A DNA stretch of 32,942 nucleotides from the NCBI GenBank assembly GCA_029262295.1, contig JAJCZR010000059.1, positions 1 through 32,942 on the forward strand, given 5' to 3'. The stretch is from Deltaproteobacteria bacterium (GTDB taxonomy: Bacteria; Desulfobacterota_D; UBA1144; Nemesobacterales; Nemesobacteraceae). The notes under the pieces are model-generated. The model made no database searches and had not been told where the DNA came from. It saw nothing but the letters and a program-made list of their open reading frames with translations. A program made the position numbers and the translations under genes. This document shows, in pieces, positions 28,805-32,548 of this stretch; position 1 is the stretch's first letter, and every line of letters begins with the position of its first letter.

Positions 28805-29540
28805 AAAGAAACAAAGGCTCGATAACCTTGTCCTTAAACTTGGTTTTGCGGAGACAAAAACAAAAGCACAGGCATTAATAATGTCTGGAGTGGTTTTTGT
28901 GAATGGTAATCGTTCTGATAAATCAGGTTCACTTGTAAGACCTTCCTCAAAGATTGAAATAATAGGTAAGACTCCCAAATTTGTTGGTAGGGGAGGACTT
29001 AAGCTTGAAAAGGCATTAACAGAATTTGGTATTGATGTTAAAAATATGGTTGCACTCGATATTGGTGCTTCCACTGGGGGTTTTACAGATTGTCTCCTGC
29101 AATATGGAGTATCAAAAGTGTATGCATTTGATGTTGGACATGGACAGCTCGACTGGAATATAAGAAATGATTCCAGGGTTGTTGTAAGGGAAAAGATTAA
29201 TTGCAGGTATTTAAAGCCAGAAGATGTGGGTGAAAAAGTTGATTTGGTAGTAATTGATGTATCTTTTATTTCGCTTCTAAAAGTTATTGAGCCTGTAATC
29301 AAACTAATGAATGAAAACTCAATTTTGATAGGATTGATTAAACCTCAGTTTGAAGTGGGAAAAGGGGAGATGGAAAAAGGTGGTGTAATAAAAGATGCTG
29401 CTAAACATGAGGCTGTAATTGATAAAATAGGTAAAGGTTTCAGTGTTTTAGGGCTTGAAGTTAAACAAGTGATTGAATCACCTATACTAGGTGGTAGTGG
29501 GAACAAAGAGTTTTTAATCCACTCAGTTTTTGAAGGTTAA
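28788..29540 (+). CDS. tlyA: TlyA-family rRNA (cytidine-2'-O)-methyltransferase
   Basis: 250 residues starting at GTG 28788. An N-terminal S4 RNA-binding domain (RLDNLVLKLGFAETKTKAQA, then IMSGVVFVNGN) is followed by a Rossmann methyltransferase (VALDIGASTGGFTDCLLQYG, motif I; VYAFDVGHGQLDW; LVVIDVSFISL, motif IV; GLIKPQFEVGK with the catalytic Lys). TlyA 2'-O-methylates cytidines of 16S and 23S rRNA and its loss gives capreomycin resistance in mycobacteria. Some homologues were first named haemolysins, with little support. The xseB-ispA-tlyA order is typical of many Gram-negative genomes. Its stop overlaps that of the convergent kinase gene by 4 bases. Confidence 0.95.
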   Translation: MKEQNKKKQRLDNLVLKLGFAETKTKAQALIMSGVVFVNGNRSDKSGSLVRPSSKIEIIGKTPKFVGRGGLKLEKALTEFGIDVKNMVALDIGASTGGFTDCLLQYGVSKVYAFDVGHGQLDWNIRNDSRVVVREKINCRYLKPEDVGEKVDLVVIDVSFISLLKVIEPVIKLMNENSILIGLIKPQFEVGKGEMEKGGVIKDAAKHEAVIDKIGKGFSVLGLEVKQVIESPILGGSGNKEFLIHSVFEG

Positions 29541-30487
29541 ATATTGTCCTCAATATGTTTTGTAATTTTTTCTGTGAATTCATCAATCAGATTAAAATCT
29601 TGTTTGTAATTGATGCCAAAAAACTTAATGTTTTTAGTAAGTTGTGATACAAAGTTAAACTCCTCTTTTAGCTGGTTTTTGTCGTAAACATCCAACCTGA
29701 AAACACCTTTTGTTATCTCCTCAAAAGCTTTTTGTGAAGTCATTTCCTCAATAGTAACATTGTTGTTGTTCGTGGGGTTAAGCATGTAAACTGATTTTAG
29801 TTGTTTTGGTTCTGTAATAAACCCAGAATTAGGGTTATTCCTGGAAATTAAAAGCTTGTTGTTAATTTCTGAAGCTTTTTGGTGTTGAAATAAATCATTT
29901 CCAAATATTTTAGCTGAATTTGGCCAAAGTCTGATAGCAGGATAACTTGGATGGGTTAAAAATTTATCTTCTCTATTCTCAATCAAAACACTGTCATCAC
30001 AGAGTAGATGGATCTTTTTTGAGTTGTTTGTTAATGCTAAAACTGAAGTTGATTTGCCAGAGCCACTGTCTCCAATAAATGCCACAATATTATTTTTATA
30101 TTCAACTGCACTTGCGTGAACAACAATATTGTTATTATTTGAAACTAATCTTGGTATTACTTGATCAATTAAAAAATGTTGAATAGTGGTTGAATCGACT
30201 CCATTTTTGTTGGAAAAAATAATATTTTGAAGGTTTTTGCTAATAAAAAAGTCGAGATACCCATTGAATTTTATTAGAAAATAGTTTTTATCTTTTCCAA
30301 GCTGAGCAAATGTGCCAAGGGCACTATTTTGGTAAGGGATTTTTAAATACCAGACAATATCACCCGTTTTTGGAGTAATATTTACTTCTGATACTTCAAA
30401 TTTGAAATCACTTGTGTCTGATTCAGCAAGTGCAGGAAGTTTGAAGTTTGATTTAAAGGTTATATCGAAGATTTTATAGTTATGCAT
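29537..30487 (-). CDS. HprK-like kinase of the lasso-peptide locus
   Basis: 316 residues. The C-terminal two thirds resemble the HPr kinase catalytic core: HASAVEYKNNIVAFIGDSGS with P-loop GDSGSGKST at 139-147, LLCDDSVLIE with the acidic pair after the P-loop, and YPAIRLWPN. The N-terminal ~110 residues are beta-rich and unrelated to true HprK regulators. There is no HPr or PTS gene nearby. Stand-alone kinases of this kind are known in lasso-peptide clusters such as paeninodin, where one phosphorylates the C-terminal Ser of the precursor. Here it is divergently arranged with the cyclase gene, start codons 30 bp apart. The core peptide here ends in Thr-Ser-Pro rather than Ser, so the target residue would differ; substrate unproven. 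Confidence 0.8.
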   Translation of the reverse strand: MHNYKIFDITFKSNFKLPALAESDTSDFKFEVSEVNITPKTGDIVWYLKIPYQNSALGTFAQLGKDKNYFLIKFNGYLDFFISKNLQNIIFSNKNGVDSTTIQHFLIDQVIPRLVSNNNNIVVHASAVEYKNNIVAFIGDSGSGKSTSVLALTNNSKKIHLLCDDSVLIENREDKFLTHPSYPAIRLWPNSAKIFGNDLFQHQKASEINNKLLISRNNPNSGFITEPKQLKSVYMLNPTNNNNVTIEEMTSQKAFEEITKGVFRLDVYDKNQLKEEFNFVSQLTKNIKFFGINYKQDFNLIDEFTEKITKHIEDNI

Positions 30488-30517: not shown

Positions 30518-32353
30518 ATGAGTGCAATAACAGTCTTATTTAATAGAAATGGTGAAAGGGTAGACGAAAATATTTTCCAAAAGATGTTTTCGTCTCTGGA
30601 TATACATGGAGTTGATGGAAGTAGAGTAGAAATAATTGAAAATGTTGCTTTTGGACATCAGCATTTTTGGTGTGTTCCTGAAGAAGTAAAAGAAGAACAA
30701 CCTCTGAAGATTAGTGAGAATCTCTACGTTTTGATGGATGGGAGATTTGATAACCGTTCTCAGCTTCTAAAGAAACTTGAGAAAAAACAAGCAGAACCTC
30801 TATCAGATGCCCTTATTGCAGGGCTTTTATTTAATAAGTATGGAAAAGTGTGTTTTGAAAGTTTGTTGGGCTCTTATGTGCTTGTCTTTTATGAACTAAA
30901 TGAAAAAAGGGTTACAGCTGTTAGGGACCACCTTGGCGACAGGACCCTTTTTTATCATTTAAGCCCCAGACTTTTTGCTATTGCTTCTGAAGAAAAGTCA
31001 CTGATACAACATAAAGATATATCCAGGGATATTGATGATAGCAGAGTTGCAGTTCATTTTGCTTATACTCAAAGGCCTGATGACAGTACTTACTTTAAAG
31101 ATATAAAAGAGATGTATCCTGCAACTTATATTGAAATTACAGAAAACAGTTTTAAATACGAGAGCTACTGGGATTTAAAAAATCAAAGTAAGGTCAGATA
31201 CAAACAAGAAAATGAATATTTTGAGCATTTTAGATCAATATTTGAGAGTTCAATAGATGCAAGAATGAGGTCTGTATTTGAGCCCACAGTTCTTTTAAGT
31301 GGAGGCGTGGACTCATCTTCAATTGTTGCAGTTGTGTCTGAAATACATAATACAAATAATCTTAAAACAGCCTCTTATTATTTTAATAAATTTAATTCTG
31401 CGAACGAGCTTCAATATATAAACTCTGTAAACGATAAATACGGCCTTTTATCTTTTAAGTTTGAAGGTGACAAGTTTTTTCCTTTCCAAAATTTTCTGGA
31501 GACAGATTTATCGCTCAACAAACCGCTTGTCACTCCCTTTTTTAATATTTTTAAAGAGGTTTTTTCTACTCTTGTGCAAAATGAAAAGAAGATGATTTTA
31601 AATGGATGGGCAGCGGATAATCTTTTTGTTGGAGCTAATGAATGGCTGGCCGATATCTTTAAAGATCGAAAACTGATTACTTTTATGAGGGAGATTTGCT
31701 TTCATACATCAAAGTTTGGAACCGGCTGGTTGTATAAAAATCCTGCACCCAGACATCTGCTTTCACCATTAAAGCCTGTGAGAGACTATATGGTTGGTGA
31801 AAAAAGCCTAAATACAAAGCCCTGGTTGAGCGATTATTCCAATTCCTTTATTAAACAAGCTGAAGTAGTATGGTCTCATAGAAAATCAAAACATCACAGG
31901 CTATCTCAGATTAATGCAGTATGTGGTTTAAACCAGAGTATGGAGTGTGCATCTTATTTTGATGATTTTGCAGGAGGACCGATTGATCTTAGATATCCAT
32001 TTCGTGACAGAAAAATGGTTGAATTTGCACTTAATATTCCAGCTTATATGATTTATAGTAAACGCTCATATAAAAACAAATACATACTTACTGAAACACT
32101 GAAAGATCATCTTCCGCAAAAAATATATAATAGAAATGATCATGGCGATTACAGCAAAATTATTTCACACGGTTATCAGTTGGAGAGAAAAGGGATTGCA
32201 GATTATCTTAAAGACAAAGATAACTTCAGGCAGTTTGTTGATCCAAAGTGGTTTGATAAAACTATTAATTCTAAAGAAGTTTCACCAATGGATGCTCTTA
32301 TTATCTGGCAGATATTGTGTTTTGAAATTTGGATTGAAAAGTTGTATAATTAG
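30518..32353 (+). CDS. Asparagine-synthetase-like lasso cyclase (C protein)
   Basis: 611 residues. The N-terminal class-II glutaminase-like domain (GHQHFWC, DGRFDNRSQLL, VRDHLGDRTLFY) lacks the catalytic Cys2: it begins MSAITVLFNRNG, not MCG. The synthetase domain has the pyrophosphatase P-loop SGGVDSS at 261-267 and later DLRYPFRDRKMVEFALNIP. Loss of Cys2 with the ATP site retained is the standard state of lasso cyclases (McjC type), which adenylate a Glu/Asp side chain and let the Gly1 amine attack it. It is followed 27 bp later by the precursor and is divergent from the kinase. A generic glutamine-independent asparagine synthetase is the alternative; the adjacent leader peptide argues against it. 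Confidence 0.85.
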   Translation: MSAITVLFNRNGERVDENIFQKMFSSLDIHGVDGSRVEIIENVAFGHQHFWCVPEEVKEEQPLKISENLYVLMDGRFDNRSQLLKKLEKKQAEPLSDALIAGLLFNKYGKVCFESLLGSYVLVFYELNEKRVTAVRDHLGDRTLFYHLSPRLFAIASEEKSLIQHKDISRDIDDSRVAVHFAYTQRPDDSTYFKDIKEMYPATYIEITENSFKYESYWDLKNQSKVRYKQENEYFEHFRSIFESSIDARMRSVFEPTVLLSGGVDSSSIVAVVSEIHNTNNLKTASYYFNKFNSANELQYINSVNDKYGLLSFKFEGDKFFPFQNFLETDLSLNKPLVTPFFNIFKEVFSTLVQNEKKMILNGWAADNLFVGANEWLADIFKDRKLITFMREICFHTSKFGTGWLYKNPAPRHLLSPLKPVRDYMVGEKSLNTKPWLSDYSNSFIKQAEVVWSHRKSKHHRLSQINAVCGLNQSMECASYFDDFAGGPIDLRYPFRDRKMVEFALNIPAYMIYSKRSYKNKYILTETLKDHLPQKIYNRNDHGDYSKIISHGYQLERKGIADYLKDKDNFRQFVDPKWFDKTINSKEVSPMDALIIWQILCFEIWIEKLYN

Positions 32354-32380: not shown

Positions 32381-32548
32381 TTGAATAAAAAAAATACCGA
32401 CTCAAAAGTTAAGGATTATAAAAAGCCTGAATTGAAAGTGTTTGGTAAACTTATGGAACTTACTAAAGGCTCCGATCCCGGACCTCAGGAATCAGGCGGG
32501 AGCCTCTGTAATTCAAACTTACAATCTTGTTTTCCCACTTCGCCATAG
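32381..32548 (+). CDS. Putative lasso peptide precursor (A peptide), TTG start
   Basis: A 55-residue ORF starting at TTG 32381. Leader residues 1-29 contain YKKPELKVFGKLMELT, an exact fit to the lasso leader pattern Y-x2-P-x-L-x3-G-x5-T (Tyr13, Pro16, Leu18, Gly22, Thr28). After the penultimate leader Thr and a Lys comes Gly30, the expected core residue 1. The core GSDPGPQESGG then continues for 26 residues in all, with Glu at core position 8, giving a predicted 8-residue Gly1-Glu8 macrolactam ring. Two Cys at core positions 14 and 21 lie in the tail and could form a disulfide. The core ends F-P-T-S-P. No strong ribosome-binding site is seen before TTG, but a later start would destroy the leader. 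Neighbouring cyclase and kinase support the call. Confidence 0.75.
   Translation: MNKKNTDSKVKDYKKPELKVFGKLMELTKGSDPGPQESGGSLCNSNLQSCFPTSP

Follow-up and report, generated by a model that had tools for sequence, protein, structure and literature searches.

Gene content of the precursor locus

The window (the whole stretch of DNA analysed, 32,942 nucleotides of contig C59) contains three genes assigned in silico to a lasso peptide pathway, together with a possible promoter:

29537-30487, minus strand: predicted HprK-like peptide kinase K (316 aa), divergent from cyclase C; TIGR04352 6e-8, below cut-off
30518-32353, plus strand: predicted lasso macrolactam cyclase C (611 aa), asparagine-synthetase-like, without Cys2
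32322-32350, plus strand: possible sigma-70 promoter for precursor A, TTGAAA-17-TATAAT (11 of 12 consensus positions; a consensus match only)
32381-32548, plus strand: predicted lasso precursor A (55 aa), TTG start, stop codon at 32546-32548
32381-32467, plus strand: leader of precursor A (29 aa)
32468-32545, plus strand: core of precursor A (26 aa), GSDPGPQESGGSLCNSNLQSCFPTSP

The precursor frame starts 27 nt past the cyclase gene and is closed upstream by a TAG codon at 32351-32353. Neither ATG nor GTG precedes the leader tyrosine in this frame, and TTG, as read from the sequence, is the sole standard start that retains the leader. The 55-residue TTG-initiated frame of the first-pass annotation is real and was correctly described. 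No Shine-Dalgarno sequence is visible before it, which is also the case for several clear genes of the window, and promoter-like sites in the region are in no excess over shuffled sequence. The next gene downstream, on the opposite strand and cut by the contig end, was read as a putative transaldolase, and the genes next to A, C and K include none recognisable as a transporter gene.

The translation consists of the leader MNKKNTDSKVKDYKKPELKVFGKLMELTK followed by the core GSDPGPQESGGSLCNSNLQSCFPTSP. The leader carries Y13, P16, L18, G22 and T28, with the core beginning at Gly30; counted from the cut site these are Tyr(-17), Pro(-14), Leu(-12), Gly(-8) and Thr(-2), and the pattern Y-x2-P-x-L-x3-G-x5-T claimed previously is present with exact spacing. 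The positions coincide with those of lasso leaders, which have YxxPxL at -17 to -12 and Thr(-2) (PMC10368454). The core, as previously claimed, has 26 residues with Gly1, Glu8 and two tail cysteines (Cys14 and Cys21, the sole cysteines of the core), and it ends with -Thr-Ser-Pro. It thus has the Gly usual at residue 1 and an acidic residue (Asp/Glu) within positions 7-9, both kept in the one close homologue. Asp3 was rejected as the ring acid, being too near Gly1.

The strict leader pattern within a frame of 25-100 aa was found once in the real window and in none of 150 Markov-simulated windows. As bare DNA it is not rare (six matches in the 2.2 Mb genome, seven in the reversed control), so the weight of the assignment comes from the adjacent cyclase and the homologous precursor described below. 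The best PDB sequence match of precursor A is the TbiA leader (5v1v_C, E 0.45), and its match to the NCBIfam rhodolasso model (E 0.044) lies below the cut-off; neither A nor K attains the curated cut-off of any family model, and C stays below that of NF033535.

Cyclase C, which supplies the asparagine-synthetase-like cyclase of a lasso system, matches PF00733 (8e-28) and GATase_7 (5e-15), contains the SGGVDS motif, and scores 5e-86 against the lasso-cyclase model NF033535, yet below its curated cut-off. Its N-terminus (MSAI) is devoid of the glutaminase Cys2, a residue required for glutamine hydrolysis and present in genuine asparagine synthetases. Cys2 is likewise missing from the cyclase of the related genome G020 (see below), and the amidotransferase domain begins with a Cys in all eight other NF033535-matching proteins whose N-termini were read (two from the window genome and six from relatives). 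The asparagine synthetases encoded on contigs C35 and C50 were rejected as lasso cyclases because they retain this Cys.

The kinase has a P-loop (GDSGSGKST) and the residues H124-K145-D164-D165, both common to the G020 kinase (31% identity), and is thus an HprK-like kinase with the His-Lys-Asp-Asp set of paeninodin-type systems. Its sole match among PDB sequences is a weak one to a P-loop GTPase. AlphaFold2 models of K and C built from two-sequence alignments were useless (pLDDT 33.1 and 34.2). Six plasmid homologues of the kinase were found, and the surroundings of four, all on alphaproteobacterial plasmids (Antarctobacter, Azospirillum, Sulfitobacter and Thalassobaculum), were opened: asparagine-synthase and PqqD genes adjoin the kinase homologue in all four, and an annotated lasso B2 gene also does so in Antarctobacter and Sulfitobacter. 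The latter two loci also contain unannotated precursor-like frames that carry the leader motif. The frame of Antarctobacter heliothermus pSMS3-2 (L050 4525-4710, plus strand; MRKTYVTPSLEIFGEVAVLTASGSQQIQTETTTGSGCSGNPNRNRC) is flanked by the genes for the asparagine synthase and the kinase homologue and encodes a lasso-like precursor with two tail Cys and no C-terminal Ser; that of Sulfitobacter indolifex pDSM14862_d (L053 2021-2179, plus strand; MKKSPYEVPTLRTHGKVEAITKTTKSGTTLDAGFSSGTPLSEVTLS) lies upstream of B1 and encodes a lasso-like precursor ending with Ser.

A homologous locus and the unlinked B1 and B2 genes

This type of cyclase occurs in 2 of the 58 genomes compared for the phylum, the window genome included, and among these 58 the only homologous locus of the same type is that of G020 (contig JAJCZQ010000001.1), a metagenome-assembled genome (MAG) labelled Deltaproteobacteria, from another family of the same order. 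It encodes homologues of A, C, K, B1 and B2, arranged as a K-B2-B1 group followed by about 3 kb of other genes, then C, A and an NTP_transf_5 gene. The two cyclases share 30-31% identity over their full length. The G020 precursor (L016 8489-8647), which ends its leader with ...YTKPKLQSFGKLAKLTL and continues with the core GFSMPDGESGMTNTQMASP, matches precursor A with a BLASTP E value of 6e-7; it keeps the leader motif, Gly1, Glu8, Ser9 and the terminal Ser-Pro, and has no Cys. The leader of precursor A could be aligned with this precursor and two plasmid precursors. The first-pass annotation had proposed a search for homologous short frames beside related cyclases, and had named in advance the loss of the leader motif or of Gly1/Glu8 in homologous loci as grounds for abandoning its reading; the search succeeded in G020, where a homologous frame adjoins the cyclase gene and all of these features are conserved. 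A scan of genome contigs with the alignment of the two cyclases returned nothing beyond the G020 contig and an unrelated amidotransferase (locus L024), which adjoins sugar and lipid genes.

No B1 or B2 genes were found in the window. Another contig of the same genome, C79, encodes a 94-aa RRE protein (B1) and a 148-aa protein (B2) side by side (C79:11299-12031), which match the families PF05402 and NF033537 (77.5 bits; cut-off 33), and the best PDB relative of this B1 is the lasso RRE TbiB1 (2e-8). The RRE protein and the transglutaminase-like peptidase of a lasso system are thus both encoded in the genome, with no cyclase gene seen beside them. The pair is located at least 10 kb from either contig end, which puts a minimum of about 10 kb between it and A/C in any contig order. 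Clustering of A, B1, B2 and C at one site, which is usual but not defining for lasso systems, is therefore not observed in the window genome. Both proteins have their closest counterparts, among those compared, in G020 (B1 48% identity, z 32; B2 29% identity, z 20.5), which supports their pairing with the A and C of the window, and from these similarities we infer that the unlinked genes probably serve this precursor. The genome is a MAG-like draft (98.8% completeness, 0.5% contamination), and the placement of C59 and C79 in one genome therefore rests on binning. An RRE-domain protein of contig C32 was rejected as the cognate B1, since the C79 protein resembles the G020 type more closely.

Two further observations concern the remaining contigs. 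Two NTP_transf_5 genes (C50:94769-95527 and C32:13415-14107) are located away from A, C and K, and by comparison with the G020 layout one of them may serve as another tailoring gene unlinked to the rest. On C32 (L006 8367-8834, plus strand), a PqqD/RRE domain is fused to a leader-like tail (YKKPSLEKYTDMQDLLLLDPIHEVDDESGWPTPKDSEVDT); this gene, placed between a radical SAM protein gene and a row of glycosyltransferase genes, possibly encodes an RRE-precursor fusion.

Predicted maturation and competing explanations

Taken together, the adjacent cyclase gene, the homologous precursor-cyclase pair of G020 and the B1 and B2 genes of the same genome support the lasso-type identity proposed in the first-pass annotation, to which we add the HprK-like kinase, the separation of B1 and B2 from A and C, and the -Ser-Pro ends. 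The ORF at 32381-32548 very probably encodes the precursor of a paeninodin-type (phosphorylated) lasso peptide. What the sequence itself shows is the ORF with its homology, the set of genes and the catalytic motifs; by analogy with known lasso pathways, the product, its ring, disulfide and phosphate, and each enzymatic step would be as follows: (i) precursor A would be translated, perhaps from its own promoter; (ii) the RRE protein B1, encoded on the other contig, would bind the YxxPxL leader and present the precursor; (iii) the HprK-like kinase would phosphorylate a core Ser, likeliest Ser25 of the conserved -SP, with Ser9 and Ser2 as alternatives; (iv) the transglutaminase-like protease B2 would cleave after Thr(-2)-Lys(-1); (v) the cyclase would adenylate Glu8 and link it to the Gly1 amine, trapping an 18-residue tail; and (vi) Cys14 and Cys21 may form a disulfide inside the tail, which would make the product a class IV lasso. 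The calculated mass of the core is 2565.07 Da in linear form, 2547.06 Da as a lasso and 2545.05 Da as a disulfide-containing lasso, with each phosphate adding 79.97 Da.

Phosphorylation of the penultimate Ser would depart from known lasso kinases: those with the His-Lys-Asp-Asp motif modify either the C-terminal Ser (PMC9266682) or, in Bradymonas, core Ser3 (PMC10368454). Ser is not the very last core residue here: precursor A ends with -Thr-Ser-Pro and the G020 precursor with -Ala-Ser-Pro, and this common end in two sequences suggests the penultimate Ser as the kinase target.

An oxidised product would belong to class IV, as both Cys14 and Cys21 are tail residues. The disulfide-stabilised lasso envisaged previously is a possibility in so far as both tail cysteines are present; the G020 precursor has no Cys, so a disulfide is not conserved across the precursor family. 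The long core with a tail disulfide had also been called an unusual combination, a description to be softened to uncommon, though not novel, because class IV lassos are already known (LP2006, pandonodin and felipeptins). We advance only tentatively the fuller proposal of a split-genome lasso pathway whose peptide joins a class IV tail disulfide with penultimate-Ser phosphorylation; the literature searched yielded no description of these two features in one lasso and no paper on split lasso clusters.

Three other explanations were weighed. The locus could be a decaying remnant, in which A, C and K survive, B1 and B2 are functionally unconnected with them, and no mature lasso is made. The lack of linkage of B1 and B2 to A, C and K, the TTG start without a Shine-Dalgarno sequence and the absence of the cyclase from most relatives are consistent with decay, but all five ORFs are intact with their catalytic motifs retained, B1 and B2 are present and closest, among those compared, to the pair of the intact G020 locus, and the K-B2-B1 and C-A halves of that locus are likewise separated, by about 3 kb of other genes. 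This makes decay improbable.

Still less probable is a linear phosphopeptide (LPP-like) produced by the kinase with B1 and B2, the cyclase closing no lasso ring here. Cyclase-less RRE-kinase loci that give linear polyphosphorylated peptides do exist (PMC13381572), and B1/K/B2/NTP-transferase loci occur in two genomes of the same order; the Cys2-less cyclase encoded directly upstream of A, and the conservation of Gly1 and Glu8 in the sole homologous pair, argue against such a product. The two loci (L036 5515-9293 of G034:C37 and L037 4289-7490 of G018:C27) have the order B1, tiny peptide, HprK-like kinase, B2, NTP transferase and ABC transporter, and no Cys2-less cyclase is found among the NF033535 matches read from these genomes. 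Their tiny peptides (e.g., ...FVEPELLKCADSLDVLTIGGYHGSRYKSPY and ...FIEPELTKHEEPLDTVTAGTIYDDLV) may be linear phosphopeptides that a lasso-type B2 cleaves.

Finally, the ORF could have arisen by chance behind an amidotransferase that serves some other purpose. The bare DNA pattern, genome-wide no commoner than in the reversed control, and the failure of every library model to reach its cut-off would agree with this, but it is hardly credible against the 0 of 150 simulated windows and the homologous ORF at the same position in G020.

Comparison with known lasso systems

With precursor A read as a paeninodin-type lasso precursor, the locus is a further kinase-type lasso system, here from an uncultured lineage; only two of the 58 genomes compared carry the cyclase. 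A, C and K can lie apart from B1 and B2, and such systems would escape searches that demand a single compact cluster. Most lasso kinases are known to modify the last Ser, a rule from which the -Ser-Pro end offers a testable departure, and with its tail cysteines the product is a candidate lasso carrying both phosphate and disulfide.

The closest likeness is to the paeninodin/pseudomycoidin-type systems (A, B1, B2 and C with an HprK-like kinase and sometimes an NTP transferase), which have the same split B1/B2, the same H-K-D-D kinase, the YxxPxL...T leader and a Ser near the C-terminus; in G020, the NTP_transf_5 gene after A extends the likeness. The window system differs in its penultimate (-SP) rather than last core Ser, its tail Cys, its unlinked B1 and B2, and its host, which is not a member of Bacillota.

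The bsf cluster of Bradymonas sediminis (BsfA/B1/B2/C/D/K/N) is likewise a kinase-containing lasso system, from a host classed with the Deltaproteobacteria, and shares Gly1 and an acidic residue 8. BsfA, however, has Ile(-2) and phospho-Ser3, whereas the window precursor has Thr(-2) and Asp at position 3 (Ser3 is found only in G020).

LPP systems share the discrete RRE, the HprK-like kinase and the YxxP leader; unlike the window system they are devoid of a cyclase, and a signal-peptidase-like protease replaces B2.

The class IV peptides LP2006, pandonodin (33 residues in all) and felipeptins share the two tail Cys and the long tail, which in the window precursor comprises 18 residues past the ring. 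A kinase is not mentioned for known class IV clusters in the portions of the literature consulted. The disulfide of the window peptide is putative, in contrast to that of class IV members, and its cysteines are absent from G020.
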